Part shown: positions 2,746-24,600 of the stretch, in pieces
How the letters are laid out: each line of letters begins with the position of its first letter
Position numbering within the stretch: the stretch's first letter is position 1
NCBI GenBank assembly: GCA_001275005.1
Contig: JWZX01001282.1
Span: 1-32,243, forward strand
Source: Chrysochromulina tobinii
Taxonomy: Eukaryota > Haptophyta > Prymnesiales > Chrysochromulinaceae
DNA length: 32,243 nucleotides
Reading direction: 5' to 3'
Notes under the pieces: model-generated
The model's input: the letters and a program-made list of their open reading frames with translations, nothing else
Databases searched by the model: none
Told to the model about the DNA's origin: nothing
Made by a program: the position numbers and the translations under genes

Positions 2746-2812
<67 letters not shown>

Positions 2813-3240
2813 AGGAGCCCCACCCCGACCCGCGATACGATGCGCTCGCGAGCTTCCGCGAGCGCATGCGGGCGGAGGCTGCCTCCAAGCCGCAGCCCGC
2901 GTCCGCGCGCGAGCGCGAGGCTGTGGACGACGCGGCTGCCCACTATCATCGCACCGCGCGGCCGCAGTCTGCGCGCCGGCAGCATCCCTCGGGATCCTAT
3001 GCGCCACGTCCTCCCCCCGAGCGCTCCGCGCCGCAGGCGCCGCCGCCGCAGCAGCAGCAGCAGCAACGGCCGCCCTCACGCTCCGTGTCACCGCGACACG
3101 TGGCGCCGGGCGGTCCGCGCGACCCGAGCCCGCGCGACCCGCGTCCTGAGGCGGCCTCGCGCCGTGGCGCCGACTTTCGCAGCCGCAAGTACGCAACGAC
3201 GGGGCAGCCTCGGATGGTGGGCCTCATTGCGCAGAAATGA
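1327..3240 (+). CDS. CAMKL/SNF1-family Ser/Thr protein kinase with UBA-like domain and polyQ tail
   Basis: This 637-residue single-exon protein has a complete kinase domain at about residues 24-279. It shows the glycine loop GEGTFG (31-36), the ATP-binding Lys in VAIKV (K53), HRDIKPEN with catalytic D147, DFG (D165) and CGSPCYAAPE (182-191). The CGSPxYAAPE signature and a UBA-like helical segment right after the kinase (about 298-354, MEQHGYKVDEV region) place it in the CAMKL group (SNF1/AMPK/MARK/MELK-like). The position of the activating T-loop Thr of AMPK (LRTSCGS) is occupied by His180 (LKHACGS), so the usual LKB1-type activation site is absent. Residues 355-637 are Pro/Gln/Arg-rich and disordered, with 21 consecutive Gln encoded by pure CAG and a later run of six Gln. 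M1 (1327) or M17 (1375) could be the start; both precede the domain. Confidence 0.93.
2746..2808 (+). repeat. Pure (CAG)21 polyglutamine tract
   Basis: Twenty-one uninterrupted CAG codons encode polyQ in the disordered tail of the kinase. A shorter CAG-rich run (six Gln, last codon CAA) lies near 3049-3066. Uninterrupted units suggest length instability between alleles. Confidence 0.97.
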
Positions 3241-4287
3241 GTGGCGCGAGGTTGCGGTGACCAGGGCACTAGCGGCGTTCGTGGAGGCGACCGCGGCACG
3301 TGCGGTGGAGGCCGATGGCGAAGGCGGCGACGTCGGCGTGGTCGCGATGGCGGCGACGGCTTCTCGGTCGCGATGGCGAGGAACCGGGTACGTTACGGGG
3401 GCACAGCCGTTACGGCTGCCGTTACGTCGGTACGTTACGGGGGCACAGCCGCAGAGGGATGCGGCAGCTGTGCGCGGCACCTGTCTCCGTTTGGCCTTGG
3501 CCGAGGCGATGGCGGCGCGAGGCGAAGGCGGCCCTGCTGCACGCGTGTGTTGTTTGAGGTGGGGGGAGAGCGGGTGTCTGCGGCTCGGGCTGAGGCCCCT
3601 GTGAAGCCCCCGAGACAGTGCGCCGAGGAGCGCTTATGACAGCATGACAGATCCATGCGGAGATGTGGAACAGCTTTGTGAGTGTGGATGACGATGAGCG
3701 ATGGCAGTTGGCACGGGGCTATCACCTAATACGTCATATCTCGGTCTCGAGGCATGCGAGATGCACGTCGTTGGAATGTTCAAAGCGAAGGGCGAAGGGC
3801 GCCGGGGCCGCGGATGATGCCCACAGAGTGAGGGCGCAACCGACCACGTGCGGAGCGGCGACCTCCGGACGCGGCGCGAGATCTTGGGTGTGATCGGAAA
3901 CCCATAACCGCGGAAGGCGCGATCTGCACGTTCATTGTTCGTTCTGGGTTCTGCCCCTTTTTCTCACCGATCCACCCCGCACGCACGCGCGCACCCGACC
4001 CGACACCCATAAACCGTACGCTACCGGAGCGTCGACCGGAGCGGATCGCTTCAGCGTGGGGCGTGCTCACACGGGGCGATTGCTGCACCGTCCCGCGTTC
4101 TCGCCTGGTCTCCCCACGCCTTCCCTCGCATGCCTGTTCGCAACACGTGGTTGCCCTCCTGTAATTTTCACGCACCTTAGATGGCATTCGATTATGCGTC
4201 CGCGCGGTGCCCCGGCGCGACGCGGGAACCAGTCTCGAGAGGAGAGTCAGGGGCGGAAGGTTTCGCAAAGGCGCAGGGAGGGCCGGT
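3241..4287. other. Intergenic region between convergent genes
   Basis: About 1 kb separates the kinase stop from the stop of the leftward gene at 4288. The open frames here are basic, low-complexity and mutually overlapping, with no recognisable domain, so none is called. The region holds a 22-nt direct repeat (3388-3451) and GGCGATGG-type short repeats around 3300-3380. No RNA gene was recognised. Confidence 0.5.
3388..3451. repeat. 22-nt direct repeat, 42-nt period
   Basis: A perfect 22-nt repeat beginning GTACGTTACGGGGGCACAGC occurs at 3388-3409 and 3430-3451. The spacer itself contains CCGTTACG and GTTACGTCG, partial copies of the same core, so this looks like the remnant of a small tandem array downstream of the kinase. 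Confidence 0.85.
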
Positions 4288-4748
4288 TTAGTGCATCGTG
4301 TCATCGACCACGGAGCACGGGGAGGGGGCGTGCGCCTTGGCAATAGAGGCCTCGAAGCGCTTGAGCTCGTGCAGCAGCCGATCGATGCGGTCCACGAGCA
4401 GGGGTACCTTATCGTCCGACCCACTCCCCACGAGCCCCCCGTACGAGAAGCCCCAGCGGGCGTAGCGCGAGAGGCAGTCGGAGGAGACCACGGACATGAG
4501 GACGACTACAAGCCGACGCTCGGGGTGGAGGGCGCGCCGCTCGGCGACCAGATCGCACAGAAGCCGGTACGCGGCGCCGTAACGGTCGGCCACGATCGCG
4601 TCAATGTACAGCAGCTCGTCGTCCTTCCCCGCGTTCACAAGCGAGCGAAGCAGTCGCTCCGCGGGGAAAGGAGTTTCGACGATGGCGGCGGCTACCGCGT
4701 CTCGGCTGCTACTGCCAGGGCTGCTGCCGCCGCCGCCGCCGCCGCCGC

Positions 4749-4791
<43 letters not shown>

Positions 4792-5511
4792 GCCACGGCG
4801 AGGGCTGGGCGGCACATCTGTGCTACTGCTGCTGCTGCTACCTGTGCTGCAGAGGGCATGCACGATGGCGTCCTGGCGTGAGAAGCGGTCATTGGACCAT
4901 CCCTCGTCGACGACAGGCATGGGTGCGCCGAGGAAGCTGAAGGTGGCATCCTGCACGAGCCGCCGCGCGTTGCGCAGCCACGGGGGTGTCGCAGCGGCCG
5001 AAGCTGGCGGCCCCGCAAATGAGCGTGCCTCCCACCCCTCACCGAAGCGCGAACTCGGCAAGAACTGCAGCTGCTTGATGGTGACGCGCGGCAGGTCAAC
5101 ACTCGTGCCTTTCAATCCGTACGCGCGCAGCGACACGCGCACGCCCGGCTGCAGCGGGGGCAGCGTGCGCCAGCACACGAAGCCCGAGGCATCGAGGCCG
5201 TCGTGAATGCCGGCGTGCAGCTGGACGATGCGCTGCTGCACGCGCGGCTCGAGGTCGTTCATGACGAGGCGTGCCCACAGGGCCGGCTCCGCGAGCCACC
5301 GGTAAAGCCGGTCCTCGTCGCCATTGAAGGGCGGGACGCCCTCCCAAAAGCCGCCAAGCATCACGAGCTGCCGCGGCGTCACCGCATAGGAGGCCTTGCT
5401 CGGCTCCTTGGTCTTGCGCGACTTTGCCGGGCGCGCATCCTCCTCCTCCTCTGCTGCGCGCTTGTTGCCACCCAGGCGGCTCACTATACTGGACCAGACC
5501 GTGCTTGGCAT
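4288..5511 (-). CDS. Nuclear-type protein with C-terminal GNAT-like fold, function unknown
   Basis: This 407-residue protein starts at the ATG at 5511; the frame extends further upstream only through a GTG. The N-terminus has a basic, bipartite nuclear-localisation-like segment (KRAAEEEED followed by AKSRKTK). The middle (about 55-235) has regular hydrophobic and aromatic spacing but no family I can name. A polySer/polyGly run encoded by AGC and GGC repeats follows (about 4712-4790 in DNA). The C-terminal part (LLYIDAIVADRYG, then YARWGFSYG) resembles the beta4-alpha3 and YxxxGF end of GNAT acetyltransferases. The acetyl-CoA loop (Q/RxxGxG/A) is not clear, so catalysis is uncertain. It is convergent with the kinase. 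Confidence 0.75.
4712..4790 (-). repeat. polySer/polyGly-coding trinucleotide repeats
   Basis: On the plus strand this reads as GCCGCC runs followed by an uninterrupted GCT/CTG run (about 4749-4791). On the coding strand it gives about 13 Ser codons and eight Gly codons in a linker before the GNAT-like part of the protein. Confidence 0.85.
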
Positions 5512-5965
5512 CAAACAGTGATAGGGCCGCGCGCGCCCGCGCTCCCTAGACGTAGGCGAGACTCCGCTCCTTCTGCCTTCTGGTTCTGTTTTTCTCGATT
5601 GCTTTTGCAATCGCACTTCTCTGCAAAACCGTTCAGGCGGCGGCGCGCATCACCACCGATACCGGAGCGCATGCCGCGTCGGCGCGCACCACCACCGTGG
5701 GGTACCGGAGCGCATGCGACGAGACGCGATGAGCATGCCGGTGCGATGCAATATCATGTACATTTTGCAGCATCATTGGGCGACCCCCTGGGGCCTGGGC
5801 GAGGCTTCCGGCCGGGCATAGATGCCGTTGTTGAGTGTTTAAGTGATGGCGCTGCACGTGCCACCACCATGTCAGCCGCTGCTGGTGAAGCATGCCCTCT
5901 TGCTCTCTCTCTCTCTCTCTCCTAGTTGTGCGATGGCGGTCTCAAAATCTGCTGCCCTTCGTCCA
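5512..5965. other. Intergenic region with imperfect duplication and CT run
   Basis: This 454-nt spacer lies between two leftward genes. It contains an imperfect duplication: GGCGCGCATCACCACCG...TACCGGAGCGCATGC (5642-5674) and GGCGCGCACCACCACCG...TACCGGAGCGCATGC (5681-5717). A (CT)n run lies near 5903-5922. No gene or RNA was recognised. Confidence 0.6.
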
Positions 5966-6610
5966 TTAGACGCATATTTCCTGCCTCGAAGACAGCTGAC
6001 TCTTGCGCATCGAGAGGCACGATTTGTCCACCTTGACCTTCTTTTTCTTCACTTTCTCCAAGTTGGCGTCGCGATTGCTCTTAAGCGCCGAGCCTGGAGA
6101 AGACTTCCCTGCCTTGCTGCTCGCGGCGGAGTCGGGCGGCGACTTCGAGCTCGTACGATGGCTCTTTTGCGCCTTGGCAGGGGGCTGCTCCGCCTTAGCC
6201 GGCAAGAACGACGTGCGCGAAAACATCCGCGTGCTGTCGGCACCGGCACGAGCTGAGTCAGGCGGCGACTCCGAGCCCGAGCGGTAGCTGCGAGCGGTGA
6301 CAGAGGCCGGGGGCATCGAGGGGGGGTCACCGAGGCATCCGCTGTCGGTAGGCGGCGCCGCGGCGCGGCGTGCGAGCCGCTCGGCACGCAGCGCCACCAG
6401 CGTCTCCTTCGAGAAGGCAGGCGCAAGCCTCGCAGGCTCAGGCGGCGGCAGCTCCGCAAGCTCGCCGTCCTCGTTGACTGTCCTCTGAACGCCACTCAGC
6501 ATCTGCAGCATCGCAGCGGGCAGCGCGCCGGGGGCGTCGGGCAGCGCAGCCACACGATCTTCCTCGTCCATGTCCCAGTCCTCGTCGGCAGGCGCGGCAA
6601 GGTGCGCCAT
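5966..6610 (-). CDS. Basic, Ser/Pro-rich protein of unknown function
   Basis: This 214-residue protein starts with MAHLAAPADEDWDMDEEDR at the ATG at 6610; the frame upstream opens only at a TTG. It has an acidic N-terminus, a short predicted helical segment (about 60-85, FSKETLVALRAERLARR), three SPPDSA or SPGSA repeats in a disordered middle (about 115-190), and a very basic C-terminus (EKVKKKKVKVDK). The FSKETLVAL stretch faintly resembles an eIF4E-binding Y/FxxxxLphi motif; that is a weak guess. No enzyme domain was seen. It sits 126 nt beyond the stop of the Trm61-like gene on the same strand. Confidence 0.65.
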   Translation of the reverse strand: MAHLAAPADEDWDMDEEDRVAALPDAPGALPAAMLQMLSGVQRTVNEDGELAELPPPEPARLAPAFSKETLVALRAERLARRAAAPPTDSGCLGDPPSMPPASVTARSYRSGSESPPDSARAGADSTRMFSRTSFLPAKAEQPPAKAQKSHRTSSKSPPDSAASSKAGKSSPGSALKSNRDANLEKVKKKKVKVDKSCLSMRKSQLSSRQEICV

Positions 6611-6736
6611 TGGTCCGACGTTTCGAGACTCTTCACTTTTGGCTCGCAAAATTACTGGCGGGGGTGTGGGGGGTCCGGGTATTCAGCCACATATCGCAAA
6701 TATTAGAGACCTCTTTATAATATCGCGCGGCTTTGT

Positions 6737-8068
6737 TTACCCCACGTGTTTTGAGCAGAACAGGAGGAAACCCGTGTGCCCTCGCATGTCAGAGTACGGT
6801 CGTGTCGATAGCTGCGCCGGCGGCGCCGTCTTTGGCAGTATTGCTGCTGCTGCTGCTGTTGCCGGAGGTTCTGCTGCCGGAGGTGCTGCTGTTGCTGCTG
6901 GCTCAGGAGACGCTTTGCTCTCCTTCGCGGGCGGTGCAAGGTCGTCGTCGCCGCCGTCCTCGACCCGTGGCCGCTTGGCCGCCGCCGCCGCCGCCGCCGC
7001 GGCCTCCCCCTCACCCTCACCCTCACCCTCCGCCGCCATAGCCTCCGCCGCCATGGCCTCCGCCGCCATAGCCTCCGCCGCCATGGCCTCCGCCGCCATG
7101 GCCTCCGCCGCCATGGCCGCCTCCGAGGTCCTCGGCTGGAGAGCGGCAGGGGCGGAGGCTGCCTGGGCGGCGGCCCGAGCGCCCTGGGCGAGCGCGAGCG
7201 CGAGCGCGGAGGACGCGTCCCCGCCATGCTGCTGGCTCACTGCATGCGTCCGTACAACCACTTCGATCACCTCTATGCCAGTGAAACCACACGCAACTAG
7301 TGCTTCTTGTGTGCGAGCTATCTGCTCGATGCAGGGCGAGAAGGTGCAGAGCCGGCCGCCCGGGCGCAGGTAGGAAGCCACGTGCCGCACCGCGTCCCAC
7401 GGCTGCGGCAGGTCGAAGATCGCCGCGTCCACCGAACCATGCGCCGTGTTGGCGTACTCCCAGCCGTCAGCACACACGTCGCCGTGCAGCGACGTGACAC
7501 GCCCGCCGAGCCCGTTGGCGGCAAACTCGGCGGCCGCGAGCTGGGCGCGGTGCGCGTTGAATTCGAAGGTGTGCAGGTGGCCGCGCGCGCCCACCGCACG
7601 CGCGAGCGCGTGCGAGAGCGAGCCCGAGCCCGTGCCTGCCTCGATGCACACGCTGCCTGGTTGCAGCTCAAGCTGCAGCACAATCATCGAGATGTCGGCG
7701 ATGTAGAGGATCTGCGTGCGGTGCGGCAGCGTCGCCGTCCATAGCTCCGGGCTCGGCGAGAGCAGGTACACGAACCCGCCGCGGCCGCGTGGCTCAGAGA
7801 CGCGCTCGCCGAAGCGGCGGCCCACAAAGTCGGCGTGAGGGAAGGAGCCGTGGCGGCTGTCGAATCTCGCCGGCGGTGCGACGCGCACCGCGTGCAGGGT
7901 TTTGAAATCCTCGTACACGATCACAAGGTCGCCGATCGCGATTCGCTGGCGCGGATTGAGGCAGGCCGTTGCGGAGCCGTCGATCGACGCTGCCATATTA
8001 CCACGTCGCAAAGTGCCTGCAGCGGTCGCAGACGTTCCCGTGCCCGTGGTCCCTGTGAAACAAACCAT
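6737..8068 (-). CDS. TRM61: tRNA (adenine-58-N1) methyltransferase catalytic subunit, Trm61-like
   Basis: This 443-residue protein matches the Trm61/GCD14/TRMT61A family, the SAM-binding subunit that makes m1A58 in the T loop of tRNA with Trm6. It shows an N-terminal beta-rich part, then HRTQILYIADISMI (117-129), SAM motif I EAGTGSGSLSHAL (143-155), the catalytic-site segment DLPQPW (219-224), SPCIEQ (244-249), and the family's C-terminal signature RPYSDMRGHTGFLLF. Between the core and that signature lies a low-complexity insertion of about 140 residues with six AMAAE repeats, a GE run, polyAla and an NLS-like AKRPRVED, consistent with nuclear localisation. The ATG at 8068 is 41 nt from the stop of the upstream same-strand gene; M25 is an alternative start. 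Confidence 0.92.
   Translation of the reverse strand: MVCFTGTTGTGTSATAAGTLRRGNMAASIDGSATACLNPRQRIAIGDLVIVYEDFKTLHAVRVAPPARFDSRHGSFPHADFVGRRFGERVSEPRGRGGFVYLLSPSPELWTATLPHRTQILYIADISMIVLQLELQPGSVCIEAGTGSGSLSHALARAVGARGHLHTFEFNAHRAQLAAAEFAANGLGGRVTSLHGDVCADGWEYANTAHGSVDAAIFDLPQPWDAVRHVASYLRPGGRLCTFSPCIEQIARTQEALVACGFTGIEVIEVVVRTHAVSQQHGGDASSALALALAQGARAAAQAASAPAALQPRTSEAAMAAEAMAAEAMAAEAMAAEAMAAEAMAAEGEGEGEGEAAAAAAAAAKRPRVEDGGDDDLAPPAKESKASPEPAATAAPPAAEPPATAAAAAILPKTAPPAQLSTRPYSDMRGHTGFLLFCSKHVG
7028..7117 (-). repeat. Six tandem 15-nt units encoding AMAAE
   Basis: Six consecutive 15-nt units (plus strand CTCCGCCGCCATGGC or CATAGC variant) encode (AMAAE)6 in the insertion of the Trm61-like protein. 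An adjoining CCCTCA hexanucleotide run encodes the GE repeat and a GCC/CGC run encodes polyAla. Confidence 0.92.
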
Positions 8069-8109
8069 TGGCTGTGAAACACTGAAACTTGTTTGTTCTG
8101 ATCTTCAGA

Positions 8110-9621
8110 TCAACGCTTGCTTCTCTGATGCAACCGCTTCCTCGCCTTCTTCGGCACCGTTTGGGCGCTGAAGCACGTCTCCTGCATCAGAGCGCGCATG
8201 CGCTCTGTGTACAGGAGGCCCGGCCGCTGCCGTTCCGAGGTCTTGCTCGCAGGAGGCCGATCGCACAGGGCCATGGTGCATGTCCACGTGGGATGCAGCG
8301 CGTCGTAGAGATCCGTGTACGTGTCATTGTCCTCGGACTCGGCGGCGGCGACGTGGCGGAGCTTGGGCTTCAAGGGGTCCTTGGGATGGACCGATGGGGC
8401 CCACGAGCCGTTGGGGGTTTGTTGAGAGAGCAGCCACTGCGTGCCCCGATCGAGCAGCGCGGGAAGTTCCTGCATGAACGCCGCGTGCTGTCGCTCTTGT
8501 GCGTCGGAAGTTGTGCCGAACTTGTTGGTACTACTGGCGCTGCGGCTGTGCTGCAGCCCGCGAAGCACATCGACACATTCGGCGAGGCCATCCAAGTCGA
8601 CGTACACCAGGCCATCAGTGGCCTCGCCCGCAATCCCTTGCGTACGGAGCTCGGCCTGCGCCAACCAAAACGCGAGCGTGTCGCGCACATACGCTACAAG
8701 CCATGGCGCATCACGTAGCTCCAGTGTGGCCGAGTACGCACTCAGCCAGTAGCACAGGTGGGTAGCCAGGTAATAGCCTTCGCCAAAGTCCGAGTCGGCC
8801 GCCACCTGGCACGGCGGCTCGAGGCTGTGCCGCCGCAGGGAAGCTAGCACCTCTCGCATGCCCACCCGCGGCCGAGGCTGCAAGCGCCCGGGGTGCACGA
8901 CCTCGCAATACTCGATGATGAAGACGCGGTACGCCACTTCGTACCAGTCGCAAGTGCAGAGCTGCCCGCTGCGCCAGTCGGCCAAAAAGCGCCCGGGCAT
9001 GGTGAGGCCTACCATGTCCACGTGTGCGATGGCCTCGTCGGCATGAGCCAGGAGCTCGGCTGAATCAAACCCAAGCGGTTCGTATCGAACAGCGCCAAGG
9101 ATCTCGAAGAGCTGCGTCACCGAGAGCGGCTGCGGCCACATCAGCCAGTGCTTGGCGAGCACTGTGAGCAGCGCCAGTGCCCATTCACGCGCTTGCTCGC
9201 ACAGAGCGGCATCTGTTTCGCTCAGGAAGACATCATAGAACATGGACACACACTGACCGCCGAGCCGCAGAAGCGGCGAGTAGTCGTCTCGCGAGAGATT
9301 GGTGTAGAGAAAGGAGAGCCCACGCTGCACAGCCGCTTTGCGGGCCTCATCCATGATGATTGTGACCGTCGCTCGTAGGCGTCGGGTCGACAGGCCTTGT
9401 GTGAGGAGGCGCGAAAGACCTGTGAACGATTTCTCCGGTGATGATTCCTCATCTCCTCCGCTCGGTGTTTTTGAAACTTGGTCAGAAGTTCTTTTTTTAG
9501 ACTCGTCGCGATCGCGCCAGGCCATTGCACCGGTCGTGGACCCAAGCCTGAGTGGCATGTACTGCGTCGTGAGCGCAGAGAATGGTCCATCAGCCAGCGC
9601 CGTGGGTGCAGAATGCGACAT
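8110..9621 (-). CDS. Large helical protein, alpha/alpha-toroid-like, function unknown
   Basis: With the ATG at 9621 the protein has 503 residues; M at 9558 or 9354 are alternative starts, and the folded part begins after 9354. Residues after the start are disordered and Ser-rich. The rest is helical. The C-terminal part has WLLSQQTPNGSW and then DLYDALHPTWTCTMAL, like the QW-type and final helix repeats of prenyltransferase/terpene-cyclase alpha/alpha-toroids. A central GYYLATHLCYWLSAYS segment carries a conserved-looking TH pair. No DxDD or metal-binding DDxxD is evident, so cyclase activity is not claimed. The C-terminus is basic (KKARKRLHQRSKR). It is head-to-head with the plus-strand SANT gene, with overlapping 5' ends. 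Confidence 0.78.
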   Translation of the reverse strand: MSHSAPTALADGPFSALTTQYMPLRLGSTTGAMAWRDRDESKKRTSDQVSKTPSGGDEESSPEKSFTGLSRLLTQGLSTRRLRATVTIIMDEARKAAVQRGLSFLYTNLSRDDYSPLLRLGGQCVSMFYDVFLSETDAALCEQAREWALALLTVLAKHWLMWPQPLSVTQLFEILGAVRYEPLGFDSAELLAHADEAIAHVDMVGLTMPGRFLADWRSGQLCTCDWYEVAYRVFIIEYCEVVHPGRLQPRPRVGMREVLASLRRHSLEPPCQVAADSDFGEGYYLATHLCYWLSAYSATLELRDAPWLVAYVRDTLAFWLAQAELRTQGIAGEATDGLVYVDLDGLAECVDVLRGLQHSRSASSTNKFGTTSDAQERQHAAFMQELPALLDRGTQWLLSQQTPNGSWAPSVHPKDPLKPKLRHVAAAESEDNDTYTDLYDALHPTWTCTMALCDRPPASKTSERQRPGLLYTERMRALMQETCFSAQTVPKKARKRLHQRSKR

Positions 9622-14883: not shown

Positions 14884-17800
14884 TCAGTCGAGGAGGACCT
14901 TGACCGCAGCTTTCCTCTCGATCCCGCTCCCGGCCGCGCGCTCATCCGCGACCTCGACGAGGAGCGCCTTCGTGGCCTCGTCCAGTGAATTGAAGCGCAC
15001 ATCGACGAAGACGAAGGCTGCGTTGGTGCGCAACGCCTCGGCGACAGCCTTGCCGCCCTTGAGCCCGATGATGTTGCCGCCAATATCGAGCGCCGTAAGC
15101 GTGGCGCTGCCGCCAAAGGCGTCTCCGATGGCCTTGCCCCCCTGCGGCCCGATGCCATTGTAGCTCACGTTGAGCTCGCGCAGCGAGCGGCTCGCGCTTG
15201 CTGCCTGCGCGACGAGGCTGATGCCTTCAATGGAGGCGGCTCGCACTCCGTTGATGTAACTTACCCCAAGACAGTTCTGGCTCAGGTCAAGGGTAGTGAG
15301 CGAGCTGTTGGCCACCAGCGCGTCCGCTAAGGCGCCAATGCCCATGGGAGAGTATTCGCCTTCAAAGCGCCCATTGTCGAACCAGACGCCGCACAAATGG
15401 TTGGACGCAAGGTTGAGCTTGAGCAGCGACGTGCTCGCCCTGAGACCCTCGGCGAGCGGCAGCGCCTCGTGTGGCACGAGCGTGTTGTGCGCGAGTGCGA
15501 CTGTGGCGCACCCCAGCAGCAGCTGCGAGATCGCGAGCAGGCTCGTCGGCCGATCTCCTGCGATCTTGCTGTTCAGATCCAGCAGCTGGGCGCTCTCGCC
15601 CACGGCCATGAGTAACCCTCGCCCAAAGGCCTCGCCCATTTCCATGCCGAGTAGAAGCGTGTTGCGCCACCATGCGTCCCAACGCCACGGCGCGGCAGCG
15701 CTCGCGGGCAGCCGGCGGCCGAGGCAGATGGCGCACGCAGTGTAGTACTCTTGGAAGGAGAGGTGTGACGATTGCATCTGGAGCGGCTCGAGCTGAAGCA
15801 GCTTGAGCAGAGGCAGCCTGTCCTGCGTCACGCGCACGCGCATCGCACGGAGCGCTTCGAGCGTCACGGGTGGAAGCTGCTCGCACGCCGCACGTACCGC
15901 CGACCGCCGCTGCTGCCGCTGCCTTGCCTCAAAAGCACGTCCTGACTGCTCGTCGAGGCCCGACGAGCGGAAGTCGCTCTCGCGCAGCTCCTCACTGCTC
16001 GTGCCGTCGACGAAGCGCACACGGAACGGGCGGGCGCTCACGACGCCACGCTTGCCCACGCACGGGCCGGCGAGCACCTCGACGTAATGGCCCTGCTCGG
16101 CGCGTCCCTCAAACGGAGCCATGTCCGCTCGGATGGCATGGAGCACGTTGGGCCTCACCAGCCCGAGTGCCGCCTCATCTAGGACTGTTTCGTCAATGAT
16201 GCGCCGCTGCATTGCATGCGCCTCGAAGAAGGTCGCTTGGAGGAGCGCGCCGAGCTGAGCGAGGGCGGCCTCGTTGCCGGTCTCGGAGGCAGAGCTCTGC
16301 AACTCATCCACCTGCTCGGCGCAGGACGCCGCGGCGGCCGCGGTTGTGGTGCTGCCATCAATGACGCCAAGATCACGAGCGCTGACACCGCTGACGCCGC
16401 TCATCGTGGCCACATGGCAATCGCGTGTGACGATCAGTCCCTCGCGCTCAAGCACAGAACGAGTCGCAAGGTCATACAAGGCGACCGTGGTGGGCATCGC
16501 ATCGATCAGCTCGGCGGCCTCGGCACCTCCGTCCGCTCTGACGTTGCCGCCGCCGACGCGCTTGGCCATCCCATCGCGCTTGGCCTGGGAGAACGGTTGG
16601 CGCGATTGGAAGATGGTGAGGACCACCGAGAGCATCCACGGATTTCCGGAGACTCGCTGGCCAGTCTCGAGATCGACCGGCACCTTGTCCCTTAGGTATC
16701 GTTCCAGAACCGCGCTGCCGGCGGCCGCACCGGCGCTGGATGGAGCACCGCCTGCCACGCCGCCACTGCCCGCCACGCCGCCCACAGCTAGCTTGCCACC
16801 CACGCGCCGTTGAATGACCTCGAGCTGCTGTGAGTCAGAGAGCGGGGCGAGGCGCAGCCGCACAAAGTGCTCCGCGAAGAGGTCCCCCCGAAGCCCCGCC
16901 GGGCGCGACGTCACCACCATCGTGTGGCCCTGTGGAGCGAGAACGTCGACGATGTGGCGTTCGATGGCGGCGCGCGCCGTGCCACCCTCGTCGAGCCCAT
17001 CGATGAGCAGAAGCGCACGCCTCGCGAGCATCGCCTGGCGCAAGAATCGATAGATGTCGGTACCCGCGCCGTACTCGCTCTGCAAGAACGCATCGACCCA
17101 ATTCCACGAATGCGCAAAGAGTGTCCGGCTGCGCGGCTGGCTCAGCTTCGCTTCGAGCTCGTGCGAGCGCACGAGGATGGGCACGAGAGCGCACTGCTCG
17201 TCACGGATCATCCCTGTCACCAGCTGCGAGAGTAGGCACGTCTTACCCTCATACGGGCCCGCCGTGAGCAGCACGCACGCTGGTCGGCGCGAGTTGGCCG
17301 CGCGGCATCGCGTCGCGTGGGCCGCTTGGAGCCACGCAGCAAGGCTCGTGACATCCACAACGCTCTCGACCTCATCACTATAGTCACTGGGAACTCCCCG
17401 CACGCCGGAGGCGGTGGCAGCGTGCAGGAGGCCCCACAACCCACGTTTCCCCGCCTGCTCCGATGCCCCCGCTGTTGCCTGGGCGGCTGAAGCCCACGAG
17501 CCTGCTTCGGGTGCAGCAGAAGAGGAGGAGGCGGGCGCGGTAGTGGAGGCGGTCGTGGCGGCTGCTGCCCGCTGTCGATCCCTAAACAAGGTAGTCCCCG
17601 CTTCTTCCATGACGATCTCAATGGGCACGCACTGCTCAAGCACATCGAGTCGACGGCCAGAGAGACCATCGACGAGGGTTGCATGCTGCACGCGCATCGT
17701 GCGCGCGTGACGGGCGCGCACGTGGTCGAACCTGATGGTAGGCAGGTCGAGCGGCCCGTGGTTCCATGGATTGAGCACGAGCGACAGCTCGTGCCCGTCC

Positions 17801-20800
17801 GCTGTACGGACGACGTGTTCCCCCATCGGGCGACTCGCCTCTGGAGCAGCCATCACGGTTGCGTCGACCCACGTGTCACCGGGCCCCGCTACGATATCAG
17901 GGCAGCCTGCGTTGGTGCGGGGGGGCGCGGCGACATGGCGTTCGCCCTTTTTTGCCGCCGCCGTCGTCGCCTTGACGTCGGCTCCCGCCTCGCTCGCCTT
18001 CAACGTGCTGACCCCACCCGCCCGCCCATCGATGCGCACCATGAGACGCTGCCCAGCCGCATAGGCTCTCACGCCCGCTGCGCCTGTCTGTCGAAGCCGC
18101 TGCCACGCCCACGCCTCCACCACTCTCTCGAGCTCGCGTCGGTCGACGGTCACTGCCACGATGAGCGCCGCGTGGATCACTCCGATGGACGCGGCCATGT
18201 GCGCCGCCGCCGCGTGCGCGAGCGCCCTCTCCTTCGCTGCAGTCGCCTTAGCGGCTGCCTGCTCGGCGCTGGTGGCGACTTCACATATCGCGTGCGCCAT
18301 CTGGACCGTCTGCTCGACCGCCATCTGCGCGGCACTCACCTTTTCGCGCGCCGCCTGCGCCGCCTTGGCCGCCTCGTCCGCCTTCATTGCAGCCATGTTG
18401 AACCCACCGCCGCGCTTGGGCGCGCCGGCACCCAGCTTGGCGCCCATCTCGGCCGCCTTGGTGACAGCAGCTGTGAGCTCAAGCGCCTTGGCCTCGGCCA
18501 CATCGCGCTCGTTCCGTGCGGCGACCGCCTTCTCCTCGTCCGCCGCTGCCTGCTTCTCGGCAACCTTGGCCGAGGCTCTCCGCTGCTCCGCACGCTCGAT
18601 GGCCGCCACCTCCTCCTCCTTGGCCGCCGTCGCCATCCCCTCTGCAAGATTCGCCTGTGTGAGAGCGTCGGCCGCGTCGGCCTTGGCCTTTCTGATGCGC
18701 TCAATGAGGGATACGATCGGCAAGCGGAGCGGCTCCGACGCGTTCTGCAGCCTCGTGAGCTCGCGGCAGATCGCATCCGATGTCTCGCGAATCTTGGCAT
18801 GCGTCCCTGGGCCCGTCCACCCGCCGCTCTCGCCGCCGCTCTTGCCCCCGCTCTTGCCGCCCCTTCGACCATCGCTTCGCTCATCGTCATCATCGTCGCT
18901 CTCGTCGTTACCACCCTTGATCATACGCTTGGGCGTGCGTTGCATGCCACCGCCGCCCTTTGCCTCGTCCGCGATCGCGCCGTCGGCAGGTGGGATCATC
19001 GTCACCAAGCTGACGAGCTCTTGCAGCACGCCGTAACTTATGCGCATGTCTGCAAGCACCGCCTCGATGGCATCGGCCGGCGGCACGTGCCAGGGCAAGA
19101 CTGCATGGCTCAATCCATCAAGTGTCAACCTATGCTCGACGCTCGTGTCGCCAAAAAGTGGCCGGGCCGTCTGCGGCTTTGTCAGCGCGGGATGGGCCTC
19201 CGGAAGCGCCATGGATGGCTGTGCCGACGGGTCCGAGGCACGGATGCCGCCACCTCTGATGAGCTGGGGGTCGAGTGACACGCTGCCGCCGCCCTCCTCC
19301 TGCTCGCCCACGTGCGCTACCACGGAGCAGAGTTTCGTCGAGCCTTCGGAGCCCGCAAGCCGCGACTCTGGGTCGTCGAGCATGGCGACCCTCTGCCCTG
19401 CGGCCAAGCGCACCTCTTGCCGTCGCACCGTGCCGAGCTCGGGCGGGATTGTGGGCGGCGTGGGCAGGGCTGTGTGCAGCATCTGTGCGATGGAGCGCGC
19501 CATGTGCCACGCGAGGCGCTTCTGCCACTTGCCGAGTGTGGGCAGCAGTAGCCGACGCAGCGCACCACCCAGCATCGGGAAGAGCAGGTTGGCAATGTGG
19601 AGGTCGCTCGGGTTGCATGTAGCGGAGGACTCGCAGTGGGTACCAGGGGGAGGCTCCGGGAGGGAAGAGCCACGAGCGAGCTCCGCCGCGAGCGCCTCTG
19701 CCTGCGAGCTCTTGGCCGTCAGCTCGGTGGCGAGGGAGAGCACCGTGATGCAGAGCTTGAAGCAGTGCTGAGCGTGCGCTGTCCACTCGGCAGGGGGTGA
19801 GCGATGGCCGAGCTTCCAGAGCTGAGGCGTTGTGCTGCTGGTGCCGCCCGTTGTGTTCACCGGCCCGTTGCTGCCGCATGCATTTGCCATCCGCCGTCGA
19901 GCAGCTGCAGGGGATGCATCGACTTGCATGCCCCCATGCTCCGCGCGGACATGAGCGCTCTTGTCCTCCGTGCTTGGCTGTTTGCTCTCCTCGGCTGTGG
20001 CAGGGCTGTCAGCAAGCAGGGCGTCCACAACGGCAGTGGCCTCTTGCAAGCGTCTCAGGCTGCCTTTCTCGTCTGCGATCCTCGGCAAGATTCCCCACAG
20101 CTCATCATCGTTCGCACAGCCGGCGTGCAGGGCGCCGATGCTCTCGCACTCTCGGAGGTGCACGCGCAAGCGCACGGCCGCCGCCTCACTCAGCTGGAAC
20201 TGCTCGCAGAGCTCGTGCGCCGAGGCGCCGCGGAGCTCGGAGAGCTCGAGAGGCACCGGTTGCCACTCGAGCAGCATCTCGCACACGAGCGAGGCCGCAT
20301 CGAGCAGCGGGCTCGTCGCGGGCAGATCTGCAGCGCTGAAGTCGAGGAGCCATACCATGCCGCGCACGTCGGCGAGGATGGCCGAGGAGCACAAGCTGCC
20401 GTGCTGCAGCACCTCGAGCGGCCGCCAGCCGTGAAGCCAGGAGGAGGAGGGTGGCAAGCGCGAGCCCGTAGTGTCGTGGGCACTCCTGTTGCTATCCGTG
20501 CGAGGGGAAAGCTTCTCCCCGCGCGCTTGGGTGGAGATTCCGCTATCGCCGCTGCCGACGCCGACGCCGATGGTGCATGGGCGCTGGCGCGGAGTGGCGT
20601 TGGCGGCCCGCAGGTTGCGGGGGGAGAGCAACTGTCGTAGGCTAGAGGATCTCGGAGAGGGCGACGGTGAGGAGCGGGAGCGAGGAGAGCGTCTTGGAAG
20701 GGAAGGTGAGGATCGTCCAAAAAGGGAAGGCCGTGGTGAGGATTCAAAAGATCCCCTCACCACGGCCTCACTGCTGATTGGAGGGGGCACCGGCAGCGTG

Positions 20801-23800
20801 AGCGCTCGTAGCAGCGGCGGTGGCGGCGGCGGTGGGGGCGGCATCGGCAGCGTCCGGGACGCCGGCGTCGGAGGTGCCAGCACGGCTGGTGAACTGCGGC
20901 CGAATGCAGATCCAAACGCGAGGAGCTCGTCGTCGTCGTCGTCGTCGCCGAGGGACAGTAGCGTGGCCCTTGCAGCAGCGGCCATGTACGCAGCGTTTGA
21001 AGCGGCCTGCGATGCAGCGGTGGCGGCCGCAGCAGCGGCGGCGGCGGCGGTGGCGGTGGCAGTGGTGGCGGCGGTGGCGGCGGCGGTGGCGGCGGTGGCG
21101 ACGGCGTGAGCGTCCGGTGCAACGCCCCCTGAGCTCTGAGGCGACCTAGGAGGCACGAGGGGGGGCGATAGGAGGCTGCTACTGGCCAGCGAGGTAGCGA
21201 GCACGCGAGGGCTGAGCGCATTTGCGCTGCCGCCACGATGCGCGGCATGGCCTCTTTGGGGCGACCCCTCGGGCGACGTGATCCCAGCGGGCGCGCCGTC
21301 AGTGTAGATCGCATGCTGCAGCTGACCCGACGCTGCAGCTGACCAGCCGCGCGGTGTTGCGGCTGGAGTGAGCAACCTCATAGCCTCGGGCTGCCGCAGG
21401 CGGTGCAGCAGCTGCAGTAGCTCCACGAACGGTGAACATGCGATCTCGCCGATCTCGTCCGCCTCGGCCACGAAGGCGAAGCTCGAGGCGCTCGCCGCGT
21501 CGAGGTGGGCAGGGCACTGCACGTGCCCGTCAGCGCGGATCCGTATGCGGTGATCCGTCTCGCAAGTACCGGTAGCGCCCGTCTCGGAGGCCAGCTGCAT
21601 CAGGCACGCCCGCAACGCCTCAGGCATCTGCGGCCACTCAGGTGGCTCAGCCGAGCTGATCGAGCTTAAGGGCGGCGGTGGTGGCCGGAAGAGCGCCGCC
21701 AGGAGTCCGGCCAGTCGGTGTGCCTCGACGTCAAGCAGCCCACCAGTGCTCGTGGAAGCCACGTTAGCACGCCGGGGACCCGCCATGGCTAGGTTGTTGA
21801 GCGGCCCGCCAGCGCCCCAGAGCTCGCGGAGGATGGCTTCGAGCCCTTCCGGAGGGAATGGGGTGCCTGGAGGGAATGGGGTGCCTGCTCCGTCGCGTCC
21901 TCGACTGCCACTAGCATGCTGGCCAGCGCCAGGCGCGGGATTGTCAGAGGTGATGGGATCAGCTGAGGCGAGGGCGGAGCTGCCATGAAGGCCTCCTTGC
22001 CGCCCGCCGAGGGCGCCGCCCTGGCCGTTGGCATTGCGATTGCCACCCGCACCATGGCCGCCGGCGTTGAAGGAGTTTGACGGATGCTGGCGCGAGTGCT
22101 GTGGCACGGGCGGCTGCAGTGCGCTGCATGCCTTGAGCATGGATTGGAACGAGGAAAGAAGCTGGGCGCGCTCGAGTAACTGCGTGTGGTACTCAGGCAG
22201 CGCCCAACACGCATTGGTCACGCTGAGCACCGCGCCGCCGCAGCTGCCGCGCCCTCCAGCCCTACGTAGCGTCTCAGCCGTCGTGGCGGCGCTGCCGTCG
22301 AGCCGTCGGCCATCGACGGCTGCAAAGAGCGGCCCGCGCACCACCTTGATGGCCGAATCCATTCCGATGGTGATCCCGAGCGACCGGATGCGCTCGGTCT
22401 CGGACAGCAGCACGCCAGCCTCCCCGAGCATCGCCAGCACTGGTTCGTACGGCGCACCCTGTGCATCGAAGCTCGCAGCACGCACGAAGAAGAGCGGAGC
22501 CAACGCAGCGGCGGAGGCGGCAGTGGTGGCGGTGGCGGTGGAAGCGACGGCAGCAGCAGTGGCGGGTGCGATGGCGGCGTGTGATTGGCACTGATGCAGT
22601 AAGGTCAGCTCGAGTCGGGCGCAGTGCCGGAAGAGCTGCTCGAGCAGATGGATCATCACCCAATCGAGCATCAGACCTCCGTTGCACTCAATCACGAGGC
22701 TGATGTACTCTGGAGGAAGCACACCATCGCCTTCCACGCCATCGCAGAGCAGCTGCCCCTCGATGCGGCCCTGCCAGAAGACGATCCCATCGGCCATCGC
22801 GCGGTGGACATCGATCCACACAAACGTGTCATAGGGACGAAAGGGGAGCTGCTTGCTGCCGCGGTCGACGTTCCTCTCTGCAGACATCGCCGCAGCTGCC
22901 TCAGCCGCATCGCTCTCACGTGAAGGCAGTAGCAGCCCGTTTTCCTCGTCGTTATAAACGGACGCCTCGGCGGCAGCAAGGTTGCTGCTGCTGCTCAAGC
23001 TGCTGCTGTTGAAGCTGCTGCTGAAGCTGCTGCTGAAGCTGCTAGCCGCTCTGCCGCTGCCTCGGCCCGCATGCGGGCCGCGTTCCTCCTCGCCCAGCAT
23101 GCAAGTGCTCACCACGGCGCCCGATCCCTTCCCCACAGGTCGCCACCTGCCCGCATGCGTGCCGCGTTCGAGTCCTCCGCTGGCGCGGGCAGCTGCTTCG
23201 GCCGCACGCTCGAGCGGCGTGCGCACGAGGGGCGTCCGATGACGCAGCATGCGTGTGAGCCCGCCACGAAGGATCCTCGGCAGCTGCTCACCATACCATC
23301 CATGCACGGCACGCTCTGGAGCGCGCGCAGCAGACAGAGGGCTCGGCGCCCTCACGCTTCCTCGGCTGCCGATCCCGATCGTCGGGAGCGTGCGAGGCTC
23401 GCTAGCCGCCGGCGGCCAGCCAAAGGCAGCCGCCACCTCATTGGAGGTCCTAATAGGCATCAAGAGCTTAGCATCTCGGCGGCCAAGGCCATCAAAGGGC
23501 CGATAATACTGGCTCGCCACGATCGAGGGCGCTGCGAGCGCCTCACCGACGCTGCATTGGAATTGCAGATCGGGACGCAGTAGCGCTCCGCTGCCGCCGC
23601 CTGACAAATCGGCCGCTGCAGGCCCGGCGGCCATCGACGCGGCCGCCAGCACTCCACCGGCCGCCGCTGCGGCTTCCGACGAACCGCTGTGGGACCACGC
23701 TACCGGCGGAGCGAGGGATGACCTTCCCATGACAAGTCCATGTTCGTACGTGGCGAGCACGTCGCGCAGCATCGCCTCGGTGTACACGGGCGCGTCTGAT

Positions 23801-24600
23801 GCGCAGGGCGGCGCGCGCACTTGCTCGGAGGGGCCAACGACGAGCTCGTGCAGCGCCGCGCTGTTGAGCTGTATCAAAAGTTGTTCGAAGCTCACCCAAC
23901 CATCACTTATGTCGAGCGTGGCCCAGGCGGCACTGGGCACGATCGACGCGGGCGGTGGCGCTCGCGGCGCGCGGTGGCGCATGAGCTCGTCCAGCAGCAT
24001 CGCGCAGCGCACGTGCGGGTCGACAGCCGCGGCTGCCGAGGGCTGCGGCTCCGCACCGCCGTCACGCTTGGCTCCGGTGCTGCGTCGACGAACTCCGCTC
24101 GGCTTGCCGACAGCGCTGTTGCTGCCCTGCTTCTTTGGCGATGTGCGCGCCGGGTGCGCGGATGCGCGGAAGCTTGCTCGTGGCGAGTCGCTCGTGGCAG
24201 CTCGCGCGCGGAAGCTCGCTCGTGGCGAGTCGCTCGTGTCCCACGCGCTCAGGCCTACACGCGCACCTGTAGCGGAAGCGTGGTTGCTGACGCTGAGGAC
24301 AATGCTCGTTTGGGAACGGGCGAGCCCGGGCTTGGCGAGGCTGCTACTGCTGCTGCTGCGACCACTCGGAGGCGGCCACGCCGGGCTGCTGTGCCGACCC
24401 GTGCCGTGCTGCCGCTTTGAGGCCTTGGCAGCGGGGGTCGTTGCACCGGCCTCTGGCTGGGTGGCGGCAAGTGGCTCTGCAGTGGCTTTCGGGCCCACAT
24501 GCACGTCGAGCGTTGGGATAACAATGATGATGTCGTTGGTCATTTCGGGAGGGGGCAGTGGTGCCGTCCAGCGTGGTAGCACGGCCGGGTGCTGCCACAT
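14884..24600 (-). CDS. Giant NACHT-LRR (NLR/STAND-like) protein with Tpt1/KptA-like N-terminal module
   Basis: A single uninterrupted frame of 3238 codons begins at the ATG at 24600 (M20 at 24543 is an alternative). Residues 1-195 are Ser/Arg-rich and disordered. Residues 201-242 (LMRHR, then LDISDGWVSFEQLL), 431-459 (AVHGWYGEQLPRILRGGLTR...) and 590-635 (FVWIDVHRAMADGIVFW...LPPEY) follow the order of Tpt1/KptA RNA 2'-phosphotransferase, with long low-complexity insertions. Residues 1395-1440 (QHGSL...VWLLDF) resemble APH/kinase-like phosphotransferases. An Ala/Glu-rich coiled coil occupies about 1960-2135. A NACHT NTPase follows: Walker A GPYEGKT (2448-2454), Walker B LLIDGLDE (2531-2538), TSRP (R2566), and HLSFQEYY at 2946, typical of the helical region after NACHT. 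A KOW/Tudor-like patch is at about 2834-2866 and RI-type LRRs at about 3050-3215 (LKLNLASNHL, LTTLDLSQNCLG, LRELNVSYNGIG, LTALDIGGNIIG). It is predicted to be an intracellular sensor switch. Confidence 0.88.
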   Translation of the reverse strand: MWQHPAVLPRWTAPLPPPEMTNDIIIVIPTLDVHVGPKATAEPLAATQPEAGATTPAAKASKRQHGTGRHSSPAWPPPSGRSSSSSSLAKPGLARSQTSIVLSVSNHASATGARVGLSAWDTSDSPRASFRARAATSDSPRASFRASAHPARTSPKKQGSNSAVGKPSGVRRRSTGAKRDGGAEPQPSAAAAVDPHVRCAMLLDELMRHRAPRAPPPASIVPSAAWATLDISDGWVSFEQLLIQLNSAALHELVVGPSEQVRAPPCASDAPVYTEAMLRDVLATYEHGLVMGRSSLAPPVAWSHSGSSEAAAAAGGVLAAASMAAGPAAADLSGGGSGALLRPDLQFQCSVGEALAAPSIVASQYYRPFDGLGRRDAKLLMPIRTSNEVAAAFGWPPAASEPRTLPTIGIGSRGSVRAPSPLSAARAPERAVHGWYGEQLPRILRGGLTRMLRHRTPLVRTPLERAAEAAARASGGLERGTHAGRWRPVGKGSGAVVSTCMLGEEERGPHAGRGSGRAASSFSSSFSSSFNSSSLSSSSNLAAAEASVYNDEENGLLLPSRESDAAEAAAAMSAERNVDRGSKQLPFRPYDTFVWIDVHRAMADGIVFWQGRIEGQLLCDGVEGDGVLPPEYISLVIECNGGLMLDWVMIHLLEQLFRHCARLELTLLHQCQSHAAIAPATAAAVASTATATTAASAAALAPLFFVRAASFDAQGAPYEPVLAMLGEAGVLLSETERIRSLGITIGMDSAIKVVRGPLFAAVDGRRLDGSAATTAETLRRAGGRGSCGGAVLSVTNACWALPEYHTQLLERAQLLSSFQSMLKACSALQPPVPQHSRQHPSNSFNAGGHGAGGNRNANGQGGALGGRQGGLHGSSALASADPITSDNPAPGAGQHASGSRGRDGAGTPFPPGTPFPPEGLEAILRELWGAGGPLNNLAMAGPRRANVASTSTGGLLDVEAHRLAGLLAALFRPPPPPLSSISSAEPPEWPQMPEALRACLMQLASETGATGTCETDHRIRIRADGHVQCPAHLDAASASSFAFVAEADEIGEIACSPFVELLQLLHRLRQPEAMRLLTPAATPRGWSAAASGQLQHAIYTDGAPAGITSPEGSPQRGHAAHRGGSANALSPRVLATSLASSSLLSPPLVPPRSPQSSGGVAPDAHAVATAATAAATAATTATATAAAAAAAAATAASQAASNAAYMAAAARATLLSLGDDDDDDELLAFGSAFGRSSPAVLAPPTPASRTLPMPPPPPPPPPLLRALTLPVPPPISSEAVVRGSFESSPRPSLFGRSSPSLPRRSPRSRSSPSPSPRSSSLRQLLSPRNLRAANATPRQRPCTIGVGVGSGDSGISTQARGEKLSPRTDSNRSAHDTTGSRLPPSSSWLHGWRPLEVLQHGSLCSSAILADVRGMVWLLDFSAADLPATSPLLDAASLVCEMLLEWQPVPLELSELRGASAHELCEQFQLSEAAAVRLRVHLRECESIGALHAGCANDDELWGILPRIADEKGSLRRLQEATAVVDALLADSPATAEESKQPSTEDKSAHVRAEHGGMQVDASPAAARRRMANACGSNGPVNTTGGTSSTTPQLWKLGHRSPPAEWTAHAQHCFKLCITVLSLATELTAKSSQAEALAAELARGSSLPEPPPGTHCESSATCNPSDLHIANLLFPMLGGALRRLLLPTLGKWQKRLAWHMARSIAQMLHTALPTPPTIPPELGTVRRQEVRLAAGQRVAMLDDPESRLAGSEGSTKLCSVVAHVGEQEEGGGSVSLDPQLIRGGGIRASDPSAQPSMALPEAHPALTKPQTARPLFGDTSVEHRLTLDGLSHAVLPWHVPPADAIEAVLADMRISYGVLQELVSLVTMIPPADGAIADEAKGGGGMQRTPKRMIKGGNDESDDDDDERSDGRRGGKSGGKSGGESGGWTGPGTHAKIRETSDAICRELTRLQNASEPLRLPIVSLIERIRKAKADAADALTQANLAEGMATAAKEEEVAAIERAEQRRASAKVAEKQAAADEEKAVAARNERDVAEAKALELTAAVTKAAEMGAKLGAGAPKRGGGFNMAAMKADEAAKAAQAAREKVSAAQMAVEQTVQMAHAICEVATSAEQAAAKATAAKERALAHAAAAHMAASIGVIHAALIVAVTVDRRELERVVEAWAWQRLRQTGAAGVRAYAAGQRLMVRIDGRAGGVSTLKASEAGADVKATTAAAKKGERHVAAPPRTNAGCPDIVAGPGDTWVDATVMAAPEASRPMGEHVVRTADGHELSLVLNPWNHGPLDLPTIRFDHVRARHARTMRVQHATLVDGLSGRRLDVLEQCVPIEIVMEEAGTTLFRDRQRAAAATTASTTAPASSSSAAPEAGSWASAAQATAGASEQAGKRGLWGLLHAATASGVRGVPSDYSDEVESVVDVTSLAAWLQAAHATRCRAANSRRPACVLLTAGPYEGKTCLLSQLVTGMIRDEQCALVPILVRSHELEAKLSQPRSRTLFAHSWNWVDAFLQSEYGAGTDIYRFLRQAMLARRALLLIDGLDEGGTARAAIERHIVDVLAPQGHTMVVTSRPAGLRGDLFAEHFVRLRLAPLSDSQQLEVIQRRVGGKLAVGGVAGSGGVAGGAPSSAGAAAGSAVLERYLRDKVPVDLETGQRVSGNPWMLSVVLTIFQSRQPFSQAKRDGMAKRVGGGNVRADGGAEAAELIDAMPTTVALYDLATRSVLEREGLIVTRDCHVATMSGVSGVSARDLGVIDGSTTTAAAAASCAEQVDELQSSASETGNEAALAQLGALLQATFFEAHAMQRRIIDETVLDEAALGLVRPNVLHAIRADMAPFEGRAEQGHYVEVLAGPCVGKRGVVSARPFRVRFVDGTSSEELRESDFRSSGLDEQSGRAFEARQRQQRRSAVRAACEQLPPVTLEALRAMRVRVTQDRLPLLKLLQLEPLQMQSSHLSFQEYYTACAICLGRRLPASAAAPWRWDAWWRNTLLLGMEMGEAFGRGLLMAVGESAQLLDLNSKIAGDRPTSLLAISQLLLGCATVALAHNTLVPHEALPLAEGLRASTSLLKLNLASNHLCGVWFDNGRFEGEYSPMGIGALADALVANSSLTTLDLSQNCLGVSYINGVRAASIEGISLVAQAASASRSLRELNVSYNGIGPQGGKAIGDAFGGSATLTALDIGGNIIGLKGGKAVAEALRTNAAFVFVDVRFNSLDEATKALLVEVADERAAGSGIERKAAVKVLLD
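20990..21110 (-). repeat. Ala/Thr-coding GGCGGT-type simple repeat
   Basis: A run of GCGGTGGCGGT-like units encodes an Ala/Thr/Val-poor ATAATAAAT stretch of the giant protein (about residues 1165-1205). A polyAsp run (GTC repeats near 20930-20945) and an SR/SP-rich run (20650-20720) lie next to it. These linkers separate the Tpt1-like and kinase-like parts. Confidence 0.75.
24164..24238 (-). repeat. 33-nt direct repeat in the NLR-like gene
   Basis: GCGCGGAAGCTYGCTCGTGG... occurs at 24164-24196 and 24206-24238, encoding the repeated SDSPRASFRA in the disordered N-terminus. One mismatch separates the copies; the period is 42 nt. Confidence 0.85.

Follow-up and report, generated by a model that had tools for sequence, protein, structure and literature searches.

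The window, a stretch of 32,243 nucleotides from Chrysochromulina tobinii (assembly GCA_001275005.1, contig JWZX01001282.1), contains one unbroken frame between positions 14884 and 24600 of the minus strand, which runs from ATG to stop over 3238 codons. All features of the protein described below lie on this strand. The remaining five frames across the same interval contain 27 to 93 stops, with a maximum opening of 595 codons. The frame (14884..24600) encodes a protein with Tpt1-like, kinase-like, helical, NACHT and leucine-rich repeat (LRR) parts, in that order, and is colinear with a public relative of 3269 residues, P0023, to which it is 87% identical over nearly its full length. An earlier note on this DNA had claimed a single protein of 3238 residues in a single-celled alga. 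The first part is borne out at the level of the frame, and the second by a public gene model, P0021 (labelled Chrpa1, Chrysochromulina_OHIO), which is 98% identical to residues 2240-3238 of the window protein.

The C-terminal part of the protein is the core of a NOD-like receptor (NLR). The NACHT domain (residues 2416-2601, 16798..17355), identified by Pfam, motifs and structure match, has an intact Walker A (GPYEGKT, residue 2448), an intact NACHT-type Walker B (LLIDGLDEGG, residue 2531, with DGLDE at its centre) and a TSRP motif (residue 2564). Its Pfam score is 23.5 bits (E 5.6e-5) in a scan of the whole protein, under the cut-off of 26.7, and 29.6 bits, above it, in a search of its own genome. 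Next comes a NACHT-associated helical and winged-helix region (residues 2635-2985, 15646..16698), delineated by Foldseek alignment to NOD2 and NLRP3, which includes a KOW-like insert (GHYVEVL...GKRGVV) and HLSFQEYY (residue 2946). RNase-inhibitor/RanGAP-type LRRs follow (residues 2990-3215, 14956..15633), with an LRR_6 match at E 7.9e-11 in the whole-protein scan. In the structure model, Foldseek matches follow the NLR fold from NACHT via the winged helix to the LRRs. Thus, the Walker motifs, TSRP, HLSFQEYY and C-terminal repeats are all present as the earlier note listed them, and its assignment of an NLR-type core agrees with the Pfam matches and with the fold matches to NOD2 and NLRP3. The window protein resembles animal NLRs (NOD2, NLRP3, NLRC4) in having NACHT, helical/winged-helix parts and RNase-inhibitor-type LRRs in the same order, with fold matches along the model, but differs from them in its Tpt1-like and TCAD9-like domains in place of PYD/CARD, its long helical and pre-NACHT parts, its KOW-like insert and its haptophyte host. 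The KOW-like insert, at window positions 16072-16092 and around, is the most conserved region compared between the window protein and P0023 (59 of 60 residues); a Pfam KOW match was obtained in one relative only, P0024 (E 0.031, under the cut-off).

A search of the window's own genome (G000, 53.15 Mb in 2253 contigs) with the Tpt1 family of Pfam (PTS_2-RNA, PF01885) at E 0.01 returned three loci, C1990, C2166 and C1389, the window itself not being among them. All three have the order Tpt1, kinase-like, NACHT, LRR, with a weakly matched LRR in C1990, which brings the genome's count to four with the window. C1990 is a single frame of 2579 codons with Tpt1 (106.7 bits against a cut-off of 26), kinase-like and NACHT parts. 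In C2166, Tpt1 (169.2 bits), TCAD9 (57.5 bits against a cut-off of 40; APH 27 bits) and the helical part lie within one frame of 1312 codons, and downstream on the same strand, spread over several frames to about 33.2 kb, are coiled-coil, pre-NACHT, NACHT (E 2.2e-4), HLSFQEFF and LRR pieces, one LRR_6 piece reaching 29.6 bits, above the cut-off. C1389 has the identical domain order across positions 547-9191 in several frames, with Tpt1 at 30.7 bits and LRR_6 at 36.4 bits. The frame breaks in C2166 and C1389 look like introns, one GT/AG pair being recognisable by eye in C2166. A NACHT intron site shared by C2166 and C1389 was considered and ruled out, the breaks lying some 15 residues apart in the DNA. 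Directly downstream of the Tpt1-NACHT gene on contig C1990, a second NACHT frame (C1990:21625-22128; locus L052, 3-5309, minus strand) with weak LRR matches at its start is a separate gene in tandem or else the same gene continued across an intron.

Beyond this genome, the relatives are P0023, P0025 and, recovered with an iterated profile, the partial proteins P0027 and P0035; the profile included the window protein, and its hits are not independent proof. Given at least four such genes in its genome and full-length public relatives, the claim that the window protein is one of a kind is refuted. Among 19 listed proteins with precomputed domains, eight have TCAD9 and NACHT without PF01885 (P0006, P0009-P0013, P0016 and P0018) and two have all three (P0005 and P0007); among those 19, kinase-NACHT proteins thus more often lack Tpt1 than carry it. 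P0005 and P0007 have an order other than that of the window protein: TCAD9 comes first, followed by half a Tpt1 domain each (different halves at the same insertion site) and then NACHT. When the Tpt1-kinase part of C1990 was used as a protein query, none of 7999 candidates proved to be a relative at E 0.001.

The N-terminal module is Tpt1-like rather than PYD or CARD, as had been proposed, on the evidence of homology to C2166 and a match of the NAD lobe to the Tpt1 fold. Its RNA-lobe-like part (residues 195-285, 23746..24018; LMRH, SDGWV, YTE), for which the model has low confidence, was placed by alignment A4 with C1990, C2166, P0019, P0003 and others; alignment A2, in which the register of P0014 and P0020 was wrong, was dropped. 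The first half of the NAD lobe (residues 419-464, 23209..23346) reads HGW where Tpt1 has HGT, followed by GLTRMLRH, and was identified by Pfam and by VIA-align to Tpt1 structures; the Pfam match covers residues 422-459 at E 0.0012 and 19.4 bits, below the cut-off, which P0025 passes (34.8 bits) and P0023 does not (16.8 bits). A Ser/Gly/Ala-rich insert (residues 465-585, 22846..23208), present in P0023 and absent from C1990, C2166, C1389 and P0025, separates it from the second half (residues 586-645, 22666..22845; RPYD, VWIDVHRAMADGIVFW, LPPEY). The latter was recognised by blastp against C2166 (residues 592-822 of the window protein, E 5e-17) and C1389 (36% identity from residue 588), and its model has pLDDT values of mostly 80-92. 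VIA-align places the NAD lobe of the window model in the Tpt1 fold; Foldseek on its own gave E 0.11 for the Tpt1 model, short of significance.

The essential tetrad of Tpt1 is Arg18, His19, Arg68 and Arg121, and NAD is contacted by the His and Thr of HGT (PMC6333775; this and the other papers cited for background are represented by excerpts). Tetrad and HGT are complete in C2166, C1990, P0002, P0003, P0019 (Noctiluca) and P0020. In the window lineage (the window protein, P0023, P0025 and C1389), HGT has become xGW in all four members, its His being kept in the window protein and C1389 and replaced by Tyr in P0023 (YGW) and Ile in P0025 (IGW). The fourth tetrad position, the Arg of GMR, is Phe in the window protein, Ser in P0023, Gly in P0025 and Pro in C1389. 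The Arg of FYRS had been considered as the decisive Tpt1 residue and was ruled out by the published tetrad. Compared with Tpt1/KptA, then, the window protein shares the RNA-lobe-like and NAD-lobe segments, with tetrad and HGT intact in its paralogues C2166 and C1990, but scores below the Pfam cut-off, reads HGW, has a displaced GMR Arg and a 121-residue insert, and is fused to a receptor core. As judged from these motifs, its Tpt1-like domain is degenerate, short of proven dead.

The kinase-like middle predicted earlier is borne out through C2166. No direct TCAD9 match to the window protein was obtained at E 1; its residues 1387-1482 are 35% identical to C2166 residues 905-998 (E 6e-17), and by this indirect route the part is homologous in sequence to TCAD9. 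The N-lobe with the TCAD9 middle spans residues 660-850 (22051..22623), from the C2166 alignment, which extends to residue 822, and a motif print-out; the VTKL of intact members is here VLAML, and the Lys is replaced by Met in the window protein and by Arg in C1990 and P0025. The C-lobe (residues 1387-1478, 20167..20442), placed by homology to C2166, reads HGSLCSSA and LLDFS. The corresponding HGDLNxxN and DF are present in C2166 and in all eight of P0006-P0013, the intact members reading DFA, whereas HGSLCSSA and DFS are found in the window protein and in P0021-P0023. The other relatives vary: HGDLRPAQ/DLA in C1990, HGHLAATN/ELS in P0025, HGSLHGGE/DFS in C1389 and HGNLSGDN/DFA in P0024. Lacking the Asp of HGD and the paired Asn, the window copy is a putative pseudokinase by motif. 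TCAD9 passes its cut-off in C2166 and in frames of three other loci (L053, L055 and L056); compared with TCAD9 elsewhere, it is here eukaryotic and stands beside NACHT and Tpt1. One figure legend ties TCAD9 to the bacterial vWA-MoxR-VMAP conflict systems (PMC10910872), which the excerpted description in PMC7159879 treats without that name. A PDB search with the C2166 kinase-like part gave one match, at E 0.96. In prokaryote and viral contigs, kinase alignment A5 matched by pattern 37 and 39 times, respectively, and tblastn recovered no relative, which with two short motifs each is weak evidence of absence. Three further parts connect the kinase-like part to NACHT: a conserved region (residues 1592-1874, 18979..19827), helical by eye and similar to C1990, C2166, C1389 and P0025; an Ala/Glu/Lys-rich stretch (residues 1990-2160, 18121..18633), probably a coiled coil by its composition and 92% identical in P0023; and a conserved pre-NACHT domain (residues 2161-2340, 17581..18120), 32% identical in C1990 (E 5e-21), parts of which precede NACHT at many other loci.

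Four results are established: how the protein is built, which folds it matches, that it belongs to a family of four genes, and which motif residues it has lost. Building on them, we propose, with a probability of about 0.5, that the window protein is a switch of the STAND class (signal transduction ATPases with numerous domains) whose N-terminal enzymes are degenerate, and which would sense, regulate or serve as a scaffold in the company of enzymatic paralogues. These roles appear the most likely ones because crucial catalytic residues are missing from both N-terminal modules. On the model of known NLRs, the NACHT ATPase would be kept shut by the C-terminal LRRs; a ligand or partner would lift this restraint, and exchange of ADP for ATP would then drive assembly. 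The payload would be the Tpt1-like domain followed by the TCAD9 kinase-like domain. With both degenerate in the window copy, the window protein would sense or regulate and the paralogues with intact sites would act, C2166 through both enzymes and C1990 through Tpt1, a sensor/executor pairing modelled on plant sensor NLRs beside helper NLRs. What we infer is that the protein switches, oligomerises, pairs with paralogues and contributes to defence or to cell death. Conservation between the window protein and P0023 is consistent with this proposal: identity is 97% in NACHT, 96% in the LRRs, 98% in the KOW-like insert and 93% and 90% in the kinase-like lobes, but 85% in the HGW block, comparable to the linkers and insert (83-87%), suggesting tighter constraint on the switch than on the HGW block.

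Several observations weigh against the proposal. Firstly, parts of the Tpt1-like domain are preserved. Its RNA lobe and second NAD-lobe segment are each 90% identical in P0023; the window protein, P0023 and P0025 retain the RNA-lobe Arg-His (the lobe was not located in C1389), and because of this weak binding may remain; the third tetrad position is Arg in the window protein, outside its usual context, and in P0025 (Tyr in P0023); and all four members of the lineage have an Arg one residue from the fourth position. Secondly, an altered kinase motif need not mean an inactive enzyme: archaeal ArkI is an active RNA kinase despite a non-canonical HGQ in place of HRD (PMC9095486). Thirdly, the LRRs are among the best conserved parts, unlike those of arms-race receptors, and those of C1990 are matched weakly only (LRR_6, E 0.04). 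Finally, trees of the NACHT and kinase parts show no single origin of the fusion, their key forks being unsettled.

The near-invariance of NACHT and LRRs would also suit a conserved STAND regulator outside immunity, one that responds to an invariant ligand of the cell itself and serves, for instance, in stress signalling or the repair of RNA. Fungal Tpt1 is a tRNA-splicing enzyme (PMC6333775), and NACHT genes resembling NPHP3 and NWD1 are present in the same genome. The NACHT family of this genome is, however, large and varied like recognition repertoires (57 matches, with LRR, ankyrin, TPR and TCAD9 partners), and we regard a non-immune role as a credible but rather unlikely alternative. The mechanism favoured in the earlier note, in which the Tpt1-like domain of the window protein itself would catalyse an NAD-dependent or RNA-directed reaction once a ligand binds, finds some encouragement in the NAD-lobe fold, in the retained tetrad residues and HGW His, in the displaced Arg and in the motifs intact in two paralogues. 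Against it stand the loss of the HGT Thr to Trp throughout the lineage, in a motif whose His and Thr both contact NAD in Tpt1, the scatter of residues at the GMR Arg, and the linker-like conservation of the HGW block. As a description of the window protein the claim is unsupported (HGW, Phe for the GMR Arg, HGS..A) and appears improbable; it suits C1990 and C2166 better, because tetrad and HGT are intact in both and the kinase motifs in C2166.

Two degenerate enzyme modules on an intact switch, with the better-preserved C2166 in the same genome, could also suggest an integrated decoy, in which the Tpt1-kinase module mimics enzymes attacked by a pathogen such as a giant virus and the NACHT-LRR part reports the attack. 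In plant NLRs, the kinase ranks among the most frequent integrated domains (PMC9528084). This model had been based on C2166 as a Tpt1-TCAD9 protein without NACHT, as its frame of 1312 residues had suggested; that view is ruled out, since the same strand carries NACHT and LRR pieces further downstream. With C2166 itself NACHT-LRR-linked and all three PF01885 matches NACHT-linked, no free-standing Tpt1 that could be the host target was found in the genome, the assembly of which may be incomplete, and a decoy is doubtful. We know of no pathogen effector that would fit it.

More speculatively, the family could be an inflammasome-like receptor with an RNA-phosphate cycle as its output. The two reactions are known individually: archaeal ArkI adds a 2'-phosphate to tRNA, and KptA removes it (PMC9095486). 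On this bolder reading, the kinase of C2166 would add a 2'-phosphate to RNA and its Tpt1 would take it off again; once active within an assembly, the pair would consume ATP and NAD+ and make a signal molecule, and the window protein would be the triggering sensor. RNA as the substrate of the TCAD9 kinase is a guess. We consider this a long shot, which if true would represent an inflammasome-like receptor of a new kind. An annotation artefact, in which the long frame fuses separate genes or holds open introns, is suggested by the omission of residues 285-542 and about 1133-1317 from P0021 and by the split frames of C2166 and C1389, but is very improbable, as residues 285-542 hold the HGW block, also found in P0025 and C1389, P0023 is in frame there and 15 residues longer rather than shorter, and C1990 repeats the domain order as one frame; the P0021 model is thus either wrong at 285-542 or a splice form.

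The proposed sensor or regulator can be set beside known systems. NACHT switches occur outside animals in green algae, combined with WD40 in Chlamydomonas (PMC4773052), and in fungi, where the excerpted account names WD, ANK and TPR partners and no LRR (PMC4986451); the words "phosphotransferase" and "ADP-ribosyl" have no occurrence in two accounts of fungal NLRs (PMC4986451, PMC9815663). Emiliania is described, in the excerpt of PMC2939053, as having no LRR receptors. DUF4062-NACHT proteins (TEP1, NWD1, NPHP3) likewise have an NAD-using or NADase-like domain ahead of the NACHT switch, but with a TIR-like domain for Tpt1 and WD40 or TPR for LRR; DUF4062 has recently been called a TIR-like NADase, active in TEP1 only among four human proteins (PMC13174449, a preprint). 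Among the matches listed from the open-access literature, which leaves most subscription journals outside, there was no account of a Tpt1-NACHT protein or of a haptophyte NACHT-LRR. The present data place an animal-type NACHT-LRR core in a very probable haptophyte, whose genome holds four or more Tpt1-kinase versions of it and dozens of NACHT matches overall. They suggest Tpt1/RNA-2'-phosphate chemistry as an NLR output, connect NLR-like proteins of eukaryotes with a kinase-like domain known from conflict systems of bacteria, and provide a set of intact and degenerate paralogues suited to a direct test of sensor versus executor roles.

As to the wider repertoire, the 57 matches above were obtained with the window NACHT as query at E 1e-4, some being pieces of one gene; Pfam NACHT gave 34 at E 0.001. 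In 13 frames scanned, NACHT is accompanied by ankyrin repeats (L039 and L040), LRRs (L042 and L047), TCAD9 (L053, L054 and L056) or no partner (L045); Pfam NACHT is absent from L052, L055 and the NUDIX frame of L054. The remaining two of the 13, L044 (2-4363, minus strand) and L046 (2776-8025, plus strand), encode DUF4062-NACHT proteins of the nephrocystin-3/NWD1 type with TPR-type repeats, one with EF-hands and TPR. Ten frames next to the window gene were scanned, and Pfam recognised common eukaryotic domains in six of them (protein kinase, GCD14 tRNA methyltransferase, RING/CCCH, SAP, short-chain dehydrogenase and VPS9) and nothing in the other four. In L054, on contig C1687, a NUDIX frame (416-2494, plus strand; E 2.8e-4) runs into a TCAD9-NACHT frame (2220-5567, plus strand), and the two may be one gene in which NUDIX is a further N-terminal module.
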